Notes: generated by a model not told the origin, from the sequence alone. Numbered from the stretch's first letter, positions 5,414 through 17,488 are shown. The stretch: 22,601 nucleotides of DNA from a virus (IMGVR_UViG_3300025661_000033:1-22601), one strand, 5' to 3'. A program made the numbers and translations.

Positions 5414-7297
5414 TTATGAATAATGGGTTCTACATACGTATGCACCATAACTGCTTGTTGAGGTCTTTGATGCACGTGCCATATCGCCTGAAGAGTTTAT
5501 TCTAAACGCATTCCCCGTACTTACGGTTTCATCGGTGTCGGCGTGCCAAGCAAATACGTCACTTCCGCTTACGCCTGAAATTCTTATTGAACGGTTCCAA
5601 ATGTTTGAAGTTAAATAGTAAGATGAATCATAATTCATCGCTGAATTAAATTCGGCCCTTGAAGGCAAACGCCAATCACTCGAACCTGAATAGCTAAAAG
5701 CATGAGCAGCTGCAATTGAAGTTGTCCAATTGTTACCAAAAGCAACTTTAAACTGAAGCCAACCCAGACCAGTTAAGTGGTCTATAATATAATAAAACGT
5801 AGCACCTCCAAAATCAGCTTCTTCAAACTGGGCTTTTGAATCAGAAGCTGCCCCACCTGCGTCATTTGTAAATCTTATCTTTGTTCCAAACTCATTATCA
5901 TTAACTAGTGTATACATTGGGTCCGCTGCGTCAAAGTCAAGTCTTTGAATTGTTGTTGCGGTGGTGCTATAATTATAACCTCCATTCGCTACTTGCCATC
6001 CAACGTCACCGTTAGCATAACTTGTGGTTAAACCATTATAATGAGGCCTTTGATAAAGTATACCACCTGCAGATGAAACACCTGAAAAGTTTACAGCCAA
6101 CCCAAAGCTAAAAGGAAGCGTTTGAGACTGTCCATCAACGTTTGTAACTGTTATATTGCCTAATTGCAAAGGGTCTGCTCCTGGGTACTCATAATCGAAA
6201 GCAGGCGTACCACCAGTTGAGTTGTTCAAGTTGAAATTATCAAGTGATAAGTTAAGTGCTGCAGGGTATCCTGGGTCAATTACGGTTCCACTTTCAGTTG
6301 TTATCACAATATCAGTTAGCGTAAGTGAAGAAGTTGCTGGCAATGAAACTGAAAAGCTTGAGTTTGAATTTTGAATGAGTGAATTCGGAACTTGAAATGC
6401 AAAGTTTTCACCACAATTGTTTGTTCCAGCGCTAAGTGTTGCGTCGGTGCTTGTTACACTGAAGTTATAATTAGAAGAGCTTCCTGAAAAGTTTATATAA
6501 AGTGATTCACCAATACCTGAAAGTGAAATGCTTTCGATGCTCCTGTTTATAATTAGGTTTGAAGTTGGATAGTTAGTTACGCCAAATGCATTGTCTCCAT
6601 TTATTCCATCAAATACTTTTATGGTGCCAAGGTTTTCAATTCCTCCAGCAGGGAATGATGAAATTAAAGCCAATTGACCACCTTGATTATTTTGAACGCT
6701 TATTGCGTTAAAGGGAACAACCCATTGACCACCAACAATTGAACCTACTTGACCACCATCATCATTTACAACGTTGTAAAACAGTGAATCAAACGCGCTT
6801 CCAACAAATACATCGTTTAGATAAAATGCTACTGCAGGACAGTTGTTTACCATTGCAGGTATGTCGCAATCGCTTTCAATTAAAGCCGAGCTTATCTTGA
6901 TGTCCATAAAGAACCCAGCCAAATAATCAGCAGAAAAGTTATTAACAGGCAATAAAGTCGTTGAGTCAAACTGAGTAGAGAAAATAGAGTTGGTTTGCCA
7001 ATTGTTGATAAGGTACTTACGAAGGTCCACGAGTATCTGGGCAGTGTCGCTTATAACGTCACGCAAGTTGTTGCTGTCTTTTTGCTTAAAGTCTACTGCA
7101 TAAACCCTAATATTGTAATCGATTAGGTTTGTGTTTTGCTGTATGCTCCTTAGTTCATAGAACAAGAATGAACCATCATTGTTGTTCTTTAAAAACTCAT
7201 TAAGGTCTTGACTGAAACCTTCACCTGCACTATTCACCTGGAGGTGAGCTGATGCAAAGTTGAGCAAGGTGTTTATAATTTGATTATAGCTTTTCAT
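5414..7297 (-). CDS. Fibre protein: tail-end-like N-terminal domain, beta-rich stalk, DUF1566/C-type-lectin-like C-terminus
   Basis: The protein has 627 residues in three parts. Residues 1 to about 145 (with SDTAQILVDLRKYL, then SADYLAGFFMDIKI and SDCDIP) look like the tail-terminator-type protein encoded near the neck of Bacteroidota phages. Residues about 150-480 are Asn/Ser/Gly-rich beta sequence. Residues about 500-627 contain SGSSDWRLPSRAEFNSA followed by aromatic-rich sequence ending GAYVCRTHYS, the hallmark of DUF1566/Fib_succ_major domains with a C-type-lectin-like fold, often used for receptor binding. It starts 15 bp after the large terminase gene. I infer a virion-attached receptor-binding protein. 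The fusion of a tail-end-like domain with a distal lectin is odd; the N-terminal assignment is the weaker part. Confidence 0.62.
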   Translation of the reverse strand: MKSYNQIINTLLNFASAHLQVNSAGEGFSQDLNEFLKNNNDGSFLFYELRSIQQNTNLIDYNIRVYAVDFKQKDSNNLRDVISDTAQILVDLRKYLINNWQTNSIFSTQFDSTTLLPVNNFSADYLAGFFMDIKISSALIESDCDIPAMVNNCPAVAFYLNDVFVGSAFDSLFYNVVNDDGGQVGSIVGGQWVVPFNAISVQNNQGGQLALISSFPAGGIENLGTIKVFDGINGDNAFGVTNYPTSNLIINRSIESISLSGIGESLYINFSGSSSNYNFSVTSTDATLSAGTNNCGENFAFQVPNSLIQNSNSSFSVSLPATSSLTLTDIVITTESGTVIDPGYPAALNLSLDNFNLNNSTGGTPAFDYEYPGADPLQLGNITVTNVDGQSQTLPFSFGLAVNFSGVSSAGGILYQRPHYNGLTTSYANGDVGWQVANGGYNYSTTATTIQRLDFDAADPMYTLVNDNEFGTKIRFTNDAGGAASDSKAQFEEADFGGATFYYIIDHLTGLGWLQFKVAFGNNWTTSIAAAHAFSYSGSSDWRLPSRAEFNSAMNYDSSYYLTSNIWNRSIRISGVSGSDVFAWHADTDETVSTGNAFRINSSGDMARASKTSTSSYGAYVCRTHYS

Positions 7298-10105: not shown

Positions 10106-10573
10106 TTATTTTTTAGATGATTTATTCTCTTTTTCCTTGTAGTAACGGGCAAGTGCTTTCGCTTTTAGTTGGGTCTTATTCTTCTGATAACTTTCTTTTG
10201 CTCTTTTAGCAATTTTCTCTTTGTTGTTCGCTACGTACTTAGCTTGGTAAGAAGAAAGAGATTTGGGGTTTTGTTTTTGCCACTCTCTCACTTTTCTTAT
10301 ATGTTTTTCACGGCAATCTTCAGTCTTCAACTCTTCTTGTGGTTGCGGTTTTGCTGTTGCTTTTTCTTCTGGGTGTTTCTCGAAAAGAAAAACGCAGTTA
10401 AGCATAGCTTTATAAGGCGTATTAGAAACAAGCTCACTAGTATCTAGATAAATCTTTAAATAAGCTTCAGGGCACCCTAAAGTCTCAGCGGCAATAGCTA
10501 TGTCATTGTAAACACAAACGGGCTTATAAAGACCATCTTCAACGGCGTACTGGGCTATTTTAATAATCATCAT
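10106..10573 (-). CDS. Unknown protein with C-terminal Lys/Tyr-rich repeat region, 155 aa
   Basis: Residues 1 to about 75 form a compact domain (IAIAAETLGCPEAYLKIYLD) with no recognised family. From about residue 95 the sequence turns strongly basic, with spaced Tyr, Asn and Lys (YQAKYVANNKEKIAKRAKES, then YQKNKTQLKAKALARYYKEK). This resembles the linker repeats next to zinc ribbons in some phage HNH endonucleases, but no HNH residues are present. It overlaps the upstream gene by 4 bp (ATGA). The basic tail is probably helical and nucleic-acid-binding. Two other proteins here share this repeat style (11090-11398 and 14691-15254). Confidence 0.6.
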   Translation of the reverse strand: MMIIKIAQYAVEDGLYKPVCVYNDIAIAAETLGCPEAYLKIYLDTSELVSNTPYKAMLNCVFLFEKHPEEKATAKPQPQEELKTEDCREKHIRKVREWQKQNPKSLSSYQAKYVANNKEKIAKRAKESYQKNKTQLKAKALARYYKEKENKSSKK

Positions 10574-11100
10574 TCATTAATTTTTTTATCATAAATCAAC
10601 TCTTCCAAATTCAAAGTCTTTTGAATTATGCCCTCTTCTTCACTTTGTTGTTTAAGCTTATTTTGTACTAAAAGCATAATAGCAACATACTTAGTCTGTA
10701 TCTCTTTGACTTTTTTAGCAAGTATATAATCTTCTCTTTCTATGCAAAGAAGTTTGACAGCCAAAAACATTGCAATGTCTTCCACAACTTGAACTTGAAA
10801 ATAAGTGCTTTTTACATTGTCAGTCAATTCATTCATCCCAAGGTCTTTGTGCAGCATGAAGATTCTTCCCGTATAAACGTCAACACAGTCTTTTTGCTCC
10901 TGGTATATATTATGCCACTCCATATCATCGATTAACGTGTCGAGGTACTTGGGAGACAAGTAAGCATTAACAATGTCTTCAAAAATGTCTAGTTGTTTTA
11001 CGGTCGCTATTTTATTGTTATTAAACGCAACAACTTTTTTTCTCTTATCGCTTTTTCTCCATTTTGCAATAATATTTTTCCACTCATCATCATTCATCAT
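10570..11100 (-). CDS. Unknown mostly helical protein, 176 aa
   Basis: No family is recognised. The N-terminus is basic (WRKSDKRKKVVAFNNNKIAT); the rest is predicted helical, with amphipathic segments around YFQVQVVEDIAMFLAVKLLC and YILAKKVKEIQTKYVAIMLL. The segment REDYILAKKVKEI resembles QEDYNFATFLRKKL in the 166-residue protein two genes upstream, so the two may be distant relatives. The start overlaps the preceding gene's end by 11 bp and the stop overlaps the next start by 4 bp, so it is translated as part of a chain. Function unknown. Confidence 0.55.
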   Translation of the reverse strand: MMNDDEWKNIIAKWRKSDKRKKVVAFNNNKIATVKQLDIFEDIVNAYLSPKYLDTLIDDMEWHNIYQEQKDCVDVYTGRIFMLHKDLGMNELTDNVKSTYFQVQVVEDIAMFLAVKLLCIEREDYILAKKVKEIQTKYVAIMLLVQNKLKQQSEEEGIIQKTLNLEELIYDKKINE

Positions 11101-11398
11101 CTTTGTCTTTTGTTTGTGACCTTAAAGCTTTTTGGTAATTGCGACCGTAGTCTTGCATTTTTTCCAAGTTGTCTTTTCTGTAATTACGAAAGTAGGCGTT
11201 GTATTCTTCTCTTTTCTCTTCTCTCTTTTCCTGGGCCCGTTGCAACACTTTAGCCTTATTTTTATCATAGTACTTCTTGCGCCGCTCTTTAAAAACCTCT
11301 TTATTAGCATCGTAATGCTTCTTTATCTTTTTCTTTATTTTATCAGCATTCTCAATCCTGTACTTAGCATTGTATTCTTTTCTTTCTTCCTGTGTCAT
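11090..11398 (-). CDS. Lys/Tyr/Asn repeat protein, 102 aa
   Basis: The whole protein consists of degenerate units of about 12-14 residues with a Tyr, an Asn and Lys pairs (YRIENADKIKKKI, YDANKEVFKERRKK, YYDKNKAKVLQRAQ, YFRNYRKDNLEKMQD). It is highly charged, probably one long helix, and has no zinc site or HNH residues. Such repeats normally lie beside a zinc ribbon and an HNH domain; here they stand alone. The 3' end overlaps the next gene by 11 bp. It is likely a nucleic-acid-binding or scaffold-type small protein, function unknown. The opposite strand is also open across this stretch only because of the repetitive Lys/Arg codons. Confidence 0.6.
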   Translation of the reverse strand: MTQEERKEYNAKYRIENADKIKKKIKKHYDANKEVFKERRKKYYDKNKAKVLQRAQEKREEKREEYNAYFRNYRKDNLEKMQDYGRNYQKALRSQTKDKDDE

Positions 11399-12918: not shown

Positions 12919-13025
12919 GGCATTGCTTCGGGGAGTATTTCCTTTTATCGTTTTACTTTCTCTTTCAAAAAGGAAGGTGCTGGTTTTCTTTCTTTAAAAA
13001 AAGCAAGCAAAAAAGAATCATCATG

Positions 13026-13061
13026 CGTGGCCGCTATTAGCTGCCCAGTGGCAGCACACAA
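13026..13061. repeat. 36-bp hairpin element, copy 1
   Basis: A 36-base sequence starting CGTGGCCGCTATTAG is repeated exactly at 13143-13178. Its centre (13040-13055) is the perfect hairpin GCTGCC-CAGT-GGCAGC. It is more GC-rich than its surroundings. Candidate roles are an origin iteron, a nicking site, an operator or a structured RNA element. Confidence 0.65.
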
Positions 13062-13142
13062 AAAGCCTCTGTGCCCACTTTAACACTTTTCAATCCCTTT
13101 CTATACCTAAACAAAAAAGAAAGCAAAGAAAGCCTTTACGTT

Positions 13143-13178
13143 CGTGGCCGCTATTAGCTGCCCAGTGGCAGCACACAA
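13143..13178. repeat. 36-bp hairpin element, copy 2
   Basis: Exact second copy of the element at 13026-13061, starting 117 bp later (about 11 helical turns, so both would face the same side of the DNA). The hairpin lies at 13157-13172. The sequence between the copies is unrelated, so this is a dispersed functional repeat rather than a simple tandem expansion. Confidence 0.65.
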
Positions 13179-13416
13179 CAAGTCTTTCTTCGGGGTGTAT
13201 AATTCCAATGTTGTAAAACTGCTTCTTTAATGAAGAGTGTTTGTGTTCTTTCTTTCTTTTTCTTTAATTCCGAAACGAAGCGTAGCGAGGTGGCCAAAGG
13301 CCCAACTGAAAAAAGCTAAGCCCTAAAACAAGATGGTTTTCTAAACTTAATACATTATAAGTGGGGGGTCAAAAACTGACATCGCCCTCTGTATCCCGCG
13401 CCAGGCAAGAGATTCA

Positions 13417-14574: not shown

Positions 14575-14594
14575 AGTATTAAGCTTAAATATAA

Positions 14595-14631
14595 AAAAAG
14601 GCCTGTAATGATTAAGTTACAGGCCTTTTTT
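14595..14631. terminator. Strong bidirectional intrinsic terminator
   Basis: A perfect 14-bp stem (AAAAAGGCCTGTAA paired with TTACAGGCCTTTTT) encloses an 8-base loop and is followed by a T run on the plus strand; the A run on the left serves the other strand. It ends the HTH/membrane-peptide transcript before the next operon. Confidence 0.88.
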
Positions 14632-14690: not shown

Positions 14691-15254
14691 ATGATAGAAG
14701 AACAAAAGTTTTGCAGTAAATGCAAAGAGACCAAAGCTTTAGAAGAGTTTAGCAGAAGAGGTCCAGACAAGCGCCAGGCTCATTGCAAGCCTTGTGCTCG
14801 ATTAAAACAGATTGAGTGGCGTAAAGCTAACGTTGAGAAAATTAGAATTGCTCATAGGCTTTATTACCTGGAAAACATTGACCGCGCCAGAGCTTACTAC
14901 CAAACCAATAAGGTTGAATTAAAAGAAAAGCACGCTACTTACCGCAAAGAGAATATTGATAAGATAAAAGTGACTAGCAAGTTGTATTATGAAAATAATA
15001 TACAGCAAGCAAAAGATAGCGCTCTTCTTCGGTATGAAGAATACCGACTAAGGCATATTGAGCTCGTAATCAAATGGCAAAAAAGAAACCCAGAAAAGGT
15101 AAAGGGTTACCAGAAAGCTTACATTCAAAGGCTCAAGAAAAAAGACGACAATTATATGCTTAAAAATAGAGAAAGAGCAAGGGTGTATTATAAAAACAAC
15201 CGAGAAAAAGTTCTTGCAAGAATGCAAGCAAAAAAAGATGAAAAACTAAAATAA
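14691..15254 (+). CDS. Zinc-ribbon plus Tyr/Asn/Lys repeat protein (HNH-associated architecture without HNH), 187 aa
   Basis: The N-terminus carries a four-cysteine zinc site: C8-x2-C11 (FCSKCKETKALEEFSRRG) and C32-x2-C35 (AHCKPCARL). This is the arrangement found at the front of many phage HNH endonucleases. Residues about 45-187 are then filled with degenerate units such as YYLENIDRARA, YYQTNKVELKEK, YRKENIDKIKV, YYENNIQQAK and YYKNNREKVLAR. No HNH catalytic His/Asn cluster is visible, so it is probably a DNA- or RNA-binding protein derived from that architecture. It begins an operon: its stop overlaps the methyltransferase start (TAATG). A divergent nuclease cannot be excluded. Confidence 0.65.
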   Translation: MIEEQKFCSKCKETKALEEFSRRGPDKRQAHCKPCARLKQIEWRKANVEKIRIAHRLYYLENIDRARAYYQTNKVELKEKHATYRKENIDKIKVTSKLYYENNIQQAKDSALLRYEEYRLRHIELVIKWQKRNPEKVKGYQKAYIQRLKKKDDNYMLKNRERARVYYKNNREKVLARMQAKKDEKLK

Positions 15255-15967
15255 TGGCAAGCACTAGAATAAACAATGACAAGTACTATACGCCTAACAG
15301 TATAGCTGTTTCATGCGTAATTAATATGTTTAATGCAATTGAAAATGACGACCCAGACTTTGATTTAAAGTTCGCAATTGAAACAGCGGCGGGTAGCGGT
15401 GTCTTTATGAAGGCCTTCTCTTCAGTTACAGCAAACCAAATACCTTGCTTTGGTTCGGACCTTTATCCAGAAGCGCCAGAAAGTTACAACGTTGTAAAAC
15501 AAGACTACCTTAAGGCAAGCACACCTTATACTGCAGGCACGATAAGTATTGGCAACCCTCCCTTTGGTATAGGTCGAGAAAGGCTTTACCCAAAGTTTAT
15601 TAAAAAAGGTCTTCAAAGTTGTAATTATGTAGGTTTCATTTTGCCTTTTTCTCAGTTTGATAACTATTGGACAAACTACGCACAAGGAGAGCTTATAGCC
15701 ACCTTTGACCTGGGTGAACAAGTGTATAGCAACTCAAGGGTTATACAATGCGCATTCAACGTATATAGGGCCTGGACAAAAGATAGACCAAGACCAAAGA
15801 AAAAGTTTCCATCAATGGAATTTATTCTTAAAAAACACTTTGAAAATGAAGGAATAAAACCAGTGAAGTTTGAAGACGTTAATTTAGAAGACCCTAGTTT
15901 AAACTGGGATTTAAACCAAGATTTTGAATTCAACTTTGACTTGAAAAAATGGCAAGATGAAAATTAA
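15254..15967 (+). CDS. DNA N6-adenine methyltransferase core, 237 aa
   Basis: This would transfer methyl groups from S-adenosylmethionine to adenine in DNA. Visible are KYYTP at residues 10-14 (N-terminal motif common in N6-adenine methylases), motif I ETAAGSG at 43-49, an acidic residue D69 (FGSDLYPEA), D84 (KQDYL) and the catalytic motif IV NPPF at 101-104 in SIGNPPFGIG. The following VGFILPFSQFDNYW and QCAFNVYRAW fit the rest of the catalytic core. At 237 residues it lacks the large C-terminal target-recognition domain of TaqI-type enzymes. It is coupled by TAATG to the zinc/repeat gene and overlaps the first tandem paralog by 11 bp. A role in protecting phage DNA from restriction is likely but inferred. 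Confidence 0.8.
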   Translation: MASTRINNDKYYTPNSIAVSCVINMFNAIENDDPDFDLKFAIETAAGSGVFMKAFSSVTANQIPCFGSDLYPEAPESYNVVKQDYLKASTPYTAGTISIGNPPFGIGRERLYPKFIKKGLQSCNYVGFILPFSQFDNYWTNYAQGELIATFDLGEQVYSNSRVIQCAFNVYRAWTKDRPRPKKKFPSMEFILKKHFENEGIKPVKFEDVNLEDPSLNWDLNQDFEFNFDLKKWQDEN

Positions 15968-16310
15968 AAATATAAACCCAAAGCAAATTCGAACAAATGA
16001 TTTTATTGTTCTTCACAATAAAATTAAACTCTTTTCTCATATGAAGAAAGGGGATAAGTTTGATGAGCCCAACATATTTGGCATTCGCAACTTTGGGGAC
16101 CCCCTTGGCAAAGTGTTTGGGTTTTTCAATAAAAGCTATTGCATTGAAAGTGACAACCCAAAAACAAAGCAGTGGTTTAAAATTATGTGCATTAAAAGAG
16201 TTTGGTGCCAAGTGAGGGAAAAGAAAAAAGGGAATGGAAGCCCATCAATAGGCGCTTCAAACATACACAGTGCTTTTTTAATTTGGAAAGCAAAAAACGG
16301 AATTGAATGA
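15957..16310 (+). CDS. Tandem 117-aa paralog, copy 1
   Basis: First of four near-identical 117-residue proteins of unknown family. The protein is basic, with no signal peptide, membrane span or Cys motif. It begins MKIKNINPKQIRTNDFIVLH and ends HSAFLIWKAKNGIE. The core CIESDNPKTKQWFKIM (residues 62-77) and the tail LIWKAKNGIE (108-117) are invariant among copies. Copy 1 is distinguished by HNKIK at 20-24, RNF at 44-46, MCIKRVW at 77-83 and SIGASN at 97-102. Its ATG lies inside the methyltransferase's last codons (11-bp overlap), so it is coupled to that gene; its stop overlaps copy 2's start (ATGA). The charge suggests nucleic-acid or acidic-partner binding. Confidence 0.72.
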   Translation: MKIKNINPKQIRTNDFIVLHNKIKLFSHMKKGDKFDEPNIFGIRNFGDPLGKVFGFFNKSYCIESDNPKTKQWFKIMCIKRVWCQVREKKKGNGSPSIGASNIHSAFLIWKAKNGIE

Positions 16311-16660
16311 AGATTAAAAATATAAACCCAAAGCAAATTCGAACAAATGATTTTATTGTTCTTCATGCTAATAATAAACTCTTTTCTCATATGAAGAAAG
16401 GGGATAAGTTTGATGAGCCCAACATATTTGGCATACGTCACTTTGGTGACCCCCTTGGCAAAGTGCATAGCTTTTTTAATAAAAGCCGTTGCATTGAAAG
16501 TGACAACCCAAAAACAAAGCAGTGGTTTAAAATTATGTTTATGAAAAGAGCTTGGTACCAAGTGAGGGAAAAGAAAAAAGGGAATGGAAGCCCAACAATA
16601 ACCTTCGCAAACATACACAGTGGTTTTTTAATTTGGAAAGCAAAGAACGGGATTGAATGA
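16307..16660 (+). CDS. Tandem 117-aa paralog, copy 2
   Basis: Second copy of the array. The N-terminal third follows copy 1 (RTNDFIVLH) but the middle differs from all others (KVHSFFNKSR at 52-61, where the other copies have KVFGFFNKSY). The C-terminal third shares MFMKRAW and HSGFL with copy 4 (copy 4 has NSGFL). Its start and stop are both ATGA overlaps with the neighbouring copies, so it depends on translational coupling within one long message. No frameshift or stop is present, which argues that the copy is maintained as a working gene. Function unknown. Confidence 0.72.
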   Translation: MKIKNINPKQIRTNDFIVLHANNKLFSHMKKGDKFDEPNIFGIRHFGDPLGKVHSFFNKSRCIESDNPKTKQWFKIMFMKRAWYQVREKKKGNGSPTITFANIHSGFLIWKAKNGIE

Positions 16661-17010
16661 AGATTAAAAATATAAACCCAAGGCAAATTCGAACAAGTGA
16701 ATTCAATGTGGTTCAAGCTGGAAATAAACTCCTTATTCACATGAAGAAAGGTGAGCATTTTGATGAGCCCAACACATTTGGCATACGTCACTTTGGTGAC
16801 CCCCTTGGCAAAGTGTTTGGGTTTTTCAATAAAAGCTATTGCATTGAAAGTGACAACCCAAAAACAAAGCAGTGGTTTAAAATTATGTGCATGAAAAGAA
16901 CTTGGTACCAAGTGAGGGGAAAGAAAAAAGGAAATGGAAGCACATCAATAACCAATGCAAACATACACAGTGCTTTTTTAATTTGGAAAGCAAAGAACGG
17001 AATTGAATGA
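16657..17010 (+). CDS. Tandem 117-aa paralog, copy 3
   Basis: Third and most divergent copy at its N-terminus: RTSEFNVVQAGNKLLIHMKK replaces RTNDFIVLH...KLFSHMKK, GEHFDEPNTF replaces GDKFDEPNIF, and STSIT replaces SPSI/SPTI near residue 96. The MCMKR and HSAFL segments match copy 1 rather than its neighbours. The conserved cores at 62-77 and 108-117 are unchanged. It is linked by ATGA overlaps on both sides. The changes cluster in a few short windows, as expected if these surfaces bind variable partners. Function unknown. Confidence 0.72.
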   Translation: MKIKNINPRQIRTSEFNVVQAGNKLLIHMKKGEHFDEPNTFGIRHFGDPLGKVFGFFNKSYCIESDNPKTKQWFKIMCMKRTWYQVRGKKKGNGSTSITNANIHSAFLIWKAKNGIE

Positions 17011-17360
17011 AGATTAAAAATATAAACCCAAAGCAAATTCGAATAAGTGAATTCATTGTTCTTCAAGCTGGAAATAAACTCTTTTCTCATATGAAGAAAG
17101 GGGATAAGTTTGATGAGCCCAACATATTTGGCATACGTCACTTTGGTGACCCCCTTGGCAAAGTGTTTGGGTTTTTCAATAAAAGCTATTGCATTGAAAG
17201 TGACAACCCAAAAACAAAGCAGTGGTTTAAAATTATGTTTATGAAAAGAGCTTGGTGCCAAGTGAGGGGAAAGAAAAAAGGGAATGGAAGCCCAACAATA
17301 ACCAATTCAAGCATAAACAGTGGTTTTTTAATTTGGAAAGCAAAGAACGGGATTGAATGA
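17007..17360 (+). CDS. Tandem 117-aa paralog, copy 4
   Basis: Last complete copy. The N-terminal window (ISEFIVLQAGNKLFSH) resembles copy 3, while MFMKRAW and SGFL resemble copy 2, and SSINSG near residues 101-106 is unique. The stop overlaps another ATG in the ATGA form, which opens the 43-codon frame at 17357-17488, so coupling may continue past the array. The conserved core at 62-77 and the C-terminal LIWKAKNGIE are intact. A terminator hairpin about 90 bp downstream ends the operon. Function unknown. Confidence 0.72.
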   Translation: MKIKNINPKQIRISEFIVLQAGNKLFSHMKKGDKFDEPNIFGIRHFGDPLGKVFGFFNKSYCIESDNPKTKQWFKIMFMKRAWCQVRGKKKGNGSPTITNSSINSGFLIWKAKNGIE

Positions 17361-17488
17361 AGATTAAATTTCTTTTTTCCAACAAAAGGTTGTACCTTTG
17401 CAAAGTACTTATTGAGGCGCTCAGCGCTGGTAATGGTATTTGTTTGGTTTTAAAGAGGTCGCTGGGGAGTGACCTCTTTTTATCTTGA
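17357..17488 (+). CDS. Possible 43-codon coupled ORF after the array
   Basis: The ATG overlaps copy 4's stop in the same ATGA manner as all array junctions. The frame reads MKIKFLFSNKRLYLCKVLIE and continues to a TGA at 17486-17488. Only the first four residues match the paralogs, because the unit breaks off after 12 bases. The product is hydrophobic and basic. The last part of the frame coincides with the terminator hairpin, and a promoter-like site lies inside it, so it may be a by-product of the duplication rather than a gene. Confidence 0.3.
   Translation: MKIKFLFSNKRLYLCKVLIEALSAGNGICLVLKRSLGSDLFLS
17369..17400 (+). promoter_or_regulatory. Candidate Bacteroidota-type promoter TTTC-N20-TACCTTTG
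   Basis: TACCTTTG at 17393-17400 fits the -7 box TAnnTTTG exactly, and TTTC at 17369-17372, 20 bases upstream, matches three of four bases of the -33 box TTTG. Transcription would start near 17406, just before a hairpin-forming segment with a terminator. Confidence 0.45.
17406..17482 (+). ncRNA. Candidate small RNA of about 75 nt
   Basis: The stretch runs from the expected start of the promoter at 17369-17400 to the strong terminator at 17452-17481. It contains a GC-rich stem at its 5' side (GCGC-TCA-GCGC within 17418-17428), a U/G-rich single-stranded middle and the terminator hairpin. It contains no ATG-started frame of its own. The alternative is that it is only the 3' end of the array operon, or part of the coupled 43-codon frame. 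Confidence 0.35.
17452..17481 (+). terminator. Intrinsic terminator after the tandem array
   Basis: AAAGAGGTCGCT pairs with AGTGACCTCTTT (12 bp, one G-U pair) around a GGGG loop, followed by a T run. It would end the methyltransferase/paralog operon and the candidate small RNA. Confidence 0.85.

Follow-up and report, generated by a model that had tools for sequence, protein, structure and literature searches.

The 3′ part of a probable methyltransferase operon in a viral genome consists of four consecutive genes for a protein of 117 amino acids, and this raises the question of what the protein is and why it is present in four copies. The window analyzed here is the 22,601-bp sequence that forms the whole virus record. 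Its terminase is at best ~35% identical to those of Bacteroides and Parabacteroides phages, indicating only distant kinship to known phages.

Organization of the Array and Its Operon

The features of the operon from the 5′ to the 3′ end are as follows.

14691-15254 (+): zinc-ribbon protein, 187 amino acids; lies upstream in what is probably the same operon, its stop overlapping the methyltransferase start by 1 nt
15254-15967 (+): adenine methyltransferase catalytic chain, 237 amino acids; motifs DKYYTP, ETAAGSGVF, and NPPF; acidic tail
15957-16310 (+): copy 1, 117 amino acids; 11-nt overlap with the methyltransferase gene
16307-16660 (+): copy 2, 117 amino acids; 4-nt overlap (ATGA) with copy 1
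16657-17010 (+): copy 3, 117 amino acids; 4-nt overlap (ATGA) with copy 2
17007-17360 (+): copy 4, 117 amino acids; 4-nt overlap (ATGA) with copy 3; target of structure prediction
17357-17368 (+): fifth-unit stub, ATGAAGATTAAA, the first 12 nt of the unit; overlaps the copy 4 stop
17452-17479 (+): terminator-like hairpin and trailing TTTAT; the transcription unit probably ends here

The array is formed by four intact 117-codon open reading frames placed head to tail on the + strand with no indels and no stops. Each open reading frame is 354 bp including the stop, and consecutive copies have a 4-nt stop/start overlap at GAATGAAG, which accounts both for the period of 350 bp (354 − 4 = 350) and for the change of frame from one copy to the next. 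As an ordinary result of the overlap, the period and frame change do not in themselves point to selection. The first-pass annotation described four tandem, stop-free, near-identical genes with a period of exactly 350 bp in a tract ending at 17368. The copies and the period are confirmed at 15957-17360, and the remaining nucleotides are explained by the start of a fifth unit after copy 4, but "near-identical" is too strong a label as the copies differ pairwise at 23-40 of 351 nucleotides and 14-23 of 117 amino acids (80-88% protein identity). These differences exclude assembler duplication of one gene and make an assembly artifact from identical repeats unlikely. The longest exact stretch common to two copies is 113 nt, located at equivalent positions of their units, and individual copies are therefore distinguishable. 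The encoded proteins are basic with a pI of about 10.

The array was previously regarded as a free-standing family, whereas the overlaps place it as the 3′ part of the methyltransferase operon. A second terminator-like hairpin at 14594-14631 provides the other bound of the proposed mRNA; nine terminator-like sites are found compared with 4.9 expected in shuffled sequences, and single sites of this type are therefore not proof. The 187-amino acid zinc-ribbon protein is weakly similar to the phage endonuclease VII and Lar-like families (phrog_2340, E = 3e-8; phrog_5558, E = 2e-5). No restriction subunit is seen within the 22,601-bp genome. A periodic Y-x3-N-x2-K motif, spotted by eye in the translations, is common to three lysine-rich proteins, namely the zinc-ribbon protein and two in the other gene block (10106-10573 and 11090-11398, both on the − strand).

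Beyond the array, a short and strongly structured stretch at 17393-17485 (+) (RNA fold z = −4.2) lies between a Bacteroidota-type −7 box, TACCTTTG, at 17393-17400 and the terminator-like hairpin; it has no Rfam match and is possibly a small phage RNA. Elsewhere in the genome, two 73-nt direct repeats (12996-13068 and 13113-13185), 78% alike and 117 bp apart, are located between two gene blocks, each containing the hairpin GCTGCCCAGTGGCAGC. The gene at 5414-7297 (−) encodes a 627-amino acid protein of the structural module with no PHROG match, the C-terminal end of which (DWRLPSRAEF...) presumably resembles DUF1566/C-type-lectin-like domains.

The Upstream Methyltransferase Lacks a Domain Present in Its Relatives

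The description of the 117-amino acid protein as unrecognized is borne out, as the profile search proposed for it gives no match at E ≤ 1 in Pfam, PHROGs, NCBIfam, or PADLOC, tblastn of the copies gives none among phages and plasmids, and no relatives are found among viral contigs and genome contigs. The 395 Bacteroidota genomes searched with the copies yield short matches at chance level, all but one interrupted by stops, and a weak match in one locus (L099) looks like chance. A second array of this kind is not found in the searches made.

The methyltransferase encoded at 15254-15967 matches phrog_5172 (E = 7e-17) over profile positions 15-134 of 377 only. The invariant D, YT, AG.G.F, and GNPPFG are common to this protein and its relatives, the family catalytic motifs DxYYT, ExxAGxGxF, and NPPFG are present, and it is by its sequence a member of the phrog_5172-like family. 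Related methyltransferases in phages KIL1 and Atu_ph07, a Helicobacter phage, and a Vibrio phage match phrog_5172 to approximately position 280 and carry a further C-terminal domain. With additional relatives collected by two IMG/VR scans, this domain of ~100 amino acids is present in all 101 distinct relatives that have a whole catalytic domain (in 100 of them at E ≤ 1e-3). The methyltransferase of the operon has no match to the domain profile, scoring 0.4 bits below zero, and its 72-residue tail scores 1.1 bits. In a tree of the catalytic domain the protein is nested, by a long branch whose placement is uncertain, within a clade of 34 with 100/100 support. All other members of the clade are fused, and this nesting indicates that the loss of the fusion is derived.

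Apparently stand-alone C-terminal domains in five other loci (L187, L193, L202, L237, and L294) are rejected as natural splits because the remaining part of the methyltransferase lies directly upstream; these look like interrupted, recoded, or frameshifted genes. In two of them (L202:2986-3789 and L237:2998-3837) the upstream remainder is in the same frame as the domain and the methyltransferase genes are broken by same-frame stops; in these phages a stop codon is possibly translated as sense. The KIL1 and Atu_ph07 methyltransferases (L157:1971-3075 and L158:1986-3039) also overlap a gene of ~100 amino acids, phrog_15563, whose two products have 46% mutual identity. Both of these methyltransferases retain the C-terminal domain, and the phrog_15563 protein, considered as a possible homologue of the copies, shows no similarity to them.

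In the relatives the C-terminal domain has the evolutionary behavior expected of a target-recognition domain (TRD). It diverges faster than the catalytic domain, with a mean identity of 0.29 where catalytic identity is 0.5-0.6, and it can be exchanged as a whole. The methyltransferases L196:3004-3798 and L197:3004-3804 are identical at 85 of 89 residues up to NPPF and at 36 of 108 residues in the C-terminal domain, the pattern expected where one specificity region has naturally been swapped for another.

The Copies Resemble the Missing Domain

Using a first profile built only from the C-terminal domains of the relatives, with the array left out, the four copies score 15.6, 14.4, 12.9, and 12.3 bits, above all 800 shuffled sequences (best 11.6), and align collinearly and nearly end to end with profile positions 7-104. 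Among 25,720 sequences from the fetched loci, the copies rank directly after genuine pieces of the family, with one unrelated open reading frame scoring between them at 13.6 bits. A larger profile of 91 domains gives a less clear picture, with copies 3 and 4 beaten by one of 4000 shuffles and copy 1 beaten or tied by two; copy 2 is the weakest and falls outside the top 14. In profile-profile comparison the observed score is reached by 0 of 400 and 1 of 900 column shuffles, and the copies score 22.8 compared with at most 13.1 for the other 24 proteins of the genome.

The sequence support for homology is moderate, as is each of these tests alone, and the case becomes coherent when they are combined with the order of the genes and with the absence of the domain from this methyltransferase only. 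Homology of the copies with the missing C-terminal domain is thus supported but not proven, and the protein, which had been left without an identity, is now likely to be the missing recognition domain of the methyltransferase.

Predicted Structure of Copy 4

Prediction of the structure of one copy, as suggested at first pass, is poor from the copies alone and improves with the domains of the relatives. AlphaFold2 with a copies-only alignment gives a pLDDT of 49 and a pTM of 0.35, compared with 70 and 0.61 for copy 4 when the domains of 38 relatives are added. VIA-align was run on the solved chains ranked highest by Foldseek. For the copy 4 model, 10 of the 12 best VIA-align matches are TRD-bearing chains from Type I, Type IIG, and related enzymes, superposed over residues 11-117 with Z values of 2.9-4.7, in a range (below 8) where a score can reflect merely a common arrangement. 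These are the Type I S subunits 1ydx, 1yf2, 2y7c, 7bst, 3okg, and 5ybb, PacII (7vru and 7vs4), a Vibrio methyltransferase (7eew), and BpuSI (3s1s). The other two are a protein called Esub1 (8vsr and 8vsq), and the matches after the best 12 are PH and longin domains with Z ≤ 2.3. No long spacer helix is predicted in the copy.

Foldseek alone gives no significant match for the copy 4 model, the best (E = 0.18) also being a DNA methyltransferase, and a profile search of the PDB with copies and relatives' domains aligned together finds no TRD by sequence. The structural matches of the copies-only model are a mixture that contains no TRDs, so the assignment of the fold depends on the added relatives. 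A TRD-like fold of the copies, of the kind known from S subunits and gamma-type methyltransferases, is a reading of the model that is supported, though short of proven.

Divergence among the Copies

The copies are related by a minimum of 60 changes, 48 nonsynonymous and 12 synonymous, where the neutral expectation is 22% synonymous (P = 0.88), and the pairwise dN/dS proposed as a check ranges from 0.42 to 1.10. With the overall ratio at the neutral value, dN/dS is rejected as proof of selection. The intact reading frames across the frame shifts were earlier taken as showing that each copy is kept as a coding gene; this argument is weak, the chance of no stops under 60 random changes being 0.09.

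The nonsynonymous changes are concentrated in codons 13-27, 54-61, and 78-106 (20 nonsynonymous and one synonymous in 78-106), and codons 62-77 are free of both nonsynonymous and synonymous change, these segments having been picked after inspection of the data. The invariant blocks noted at first pass are real at 62-77 and 107-117. As 62-77 also lacks synonymous change, the invariance is partly due to a recent common origin or to gene conversion. The residues that vary among the copies are not significantly enriched at the columns variable in the family (P = 0.2). Along the unit there are three mutually incompatible groupings of the copies, which need recombination or repeated mutation. The incompatible site patterns are not significantly clustered in space (P = 0.16), and mosaic copies are therefore suggested rather than proven.

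Discussion

The reading that best accommodates these observations, with a probability of roughly 0.7, is that the locus encodes a split m6A methyltransferase composed of one catalytic chain and four alternative single-TRD specificity subunits. The order of catalytic part followed by recognition part, with overlap, mirrors the fused gene and is counted in favor of this reading. In the proposed sequence of events the methyltransferase gene would have been split after the catalytic domain in this phage lineage, and the C-terminal recognition domain of ~100 amino acids would have become its own cistron, duplicated in tandem to four, and diverged. A single mRNA would supply all of the chains, each translated by stop/start overlap, as for the overlapping hsdM and hsdS of EcoKI, which are translationally coupled (PMC3510504). 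Each basic subunit may bind the catalytic chain, with the acidic tail as a possible docking site, and would then direct the catalytic chain to a DNA site. Variants would read different sites, and we infer that the four copies have distinct specificities. The split enzyme would probably yield several methylation patterns from one catalytic chain, and these patterns would shield phage DNA from cleavage by several restriction enzymes of the host. An anti-defense or host-takeover role had been suggested for the array; counter-defense is the likely benefit, exerted here through the recognition domain of a methyltransferase. It is conceivable, but rather doubtful, that the four single-TRD subunits act with the one methyltransferase, like the 2M+2S enzyme M.AhdI, as homo- or heterodimers, which could give a combinatorial epigenetic disguise of up to ten patterns from ~1.4 kb of DNA, with recombination within the array continuing to generate new recognition patterns.

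The 117-amino acid protein might alternatively be an unrelated small, basic protein of anti-defense or host takeover, with selection for dose or variants behind its amplification next to a methyltransferase with a divergent C terminus. Such a protein would be in keeping with copies that match no known sequence directly and have moderate profile scores against the methyltransferase domain, and tandem amplification as counter-defense is documented in phage T4 (PMC9391042). It is nevertheless improbable, as it leaves unexplained the absence from this methyltransferase of a domain found in 101 of 101 relatives, the end-to-end alignment of the copies with that same domain, and the gain in model confidence from the relatives' domains. 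Selection for dose also predicts uniform copies, whereas the proteins differ by 12-20%, so of the two benefits first envisaged for an amplified family, variants fit better and dose less well.

The TRD-like model of copy 4 is also compatible with decoy specificity subunits, stand-alone proteins that would associate with the M subunits of the host and either retarget or inactivate them. Pairing of a free single-TRD protein with a foreign M subunit is conceivable, as one HsdM can work with alternative S subunits in Helicobacter pylori (PMC3936762), and variants would suit several hosts. The overlapping upstream methyltransferase, which itself needs this domain, is however the simpler partner, and by sequence the domain belongs to the phage's own methyltransferase family and not to Type I S subunits, making decoys highly improbable. 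Least likely is that the array is debris or an assembly product, with recent, drifting duplications and no function beyond one copy. The 48:12 ratio, the probability of 0.09 for the absence of stops, and the fifth-unit stub, which shows that the array changes in size, are as expected for debris. Against it, the four copies have neither indels nor stops, their differences at 23-40 of 351 nucleotides are not those of assembler duplicates, and the nonsynonymous changes fall in few segments, albeit ones chosen post hoc.

The split methyltransferase proposed here can be compared with several known systems. The phrog_5172-type phage adenine methyltransferases (Pseudomonas phage KIL1, Agrobacterium phage Atu_ph07, and many IMG/VR phages) have the same catalytic domain, and the 117-amino acid protein has its apparent homologue in their C-terminal domain, but that domain is fused and single in 101 of 101 cases, in contrast to the separate gene in four copies found here. 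The multispecific methyltransferases of the SPbeta group are cytosine-C5 enzymes with all TRDs within one polypeptide. In the proposed system the enzyme is of the N6-adenine type, with the NPPF motif of amino-methyltransferases, and the putative TRDs are separate cistrons rather than several TRDs inside one cytosine-C5 chain. As cited in PMC8936443, the multispecific C5-methyltransferases of the Bacillus SPbeta-group phages SPR, phi3T, rho11, and H2 share with it the principle of a phage methyltransferase having one catalytic part and several recognition domains or specificities.

Division between chains is also known. M.AhdI has separate M and S chains and works as 2M+2S (PMC4081073), and in this enzyme and the Type I M/S methyltransferases (PMC4081073 and PMC3510504) the catalytic and specificity chains are separate, the genes overlap, and S is a TRD protein; here the likeness to a two-chain enzyme consists of gene overlap and complementary domain content, known from the genes alone. 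Type I S subunits have two TRDs and helical spacers, and the copies, each a 117-amino acid single domain in four tandem variants, do not have the two TRDs and helical conserved regions of HsdS in one chain. The C5-methyltransferases M.AquI and M.EcoHK31I are split into two polypeptides that work together (PMC3404938) and thus represent a normally single-chain methyltransferase that is naturally divided, as proposed here, although they are cytosine enzymes with one small subunit and another cut site, compared with four variants in the phage. In H. pylori one HsdM is used with two alternative S subunits to give different methylation patterns (PMC3936762); one methylating chain with alternative specificity subunits is again as proposed here, but this is a bacterial Type I system with no tandem single-TRD phage array. 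A literature search of incomplete coverage found no report of separate single-TRD genes arranged in tandem.

The proposed system would unite the multispecific phage methyltransferase with the separate specificity subunit, the recognition domain being amplified as four independent cistrons, and it gives a tandem gene family a testable function. If true, a single enzyme could methylate several different DNA sequences and thereby help the phage to escape more than one bacterial restriction system. This would be a cheap route for a phage to broaden its protection from restriction, and the array would be a naturally occurring collection of interchangeable recognition subunits that serve a single small catalytic chain.
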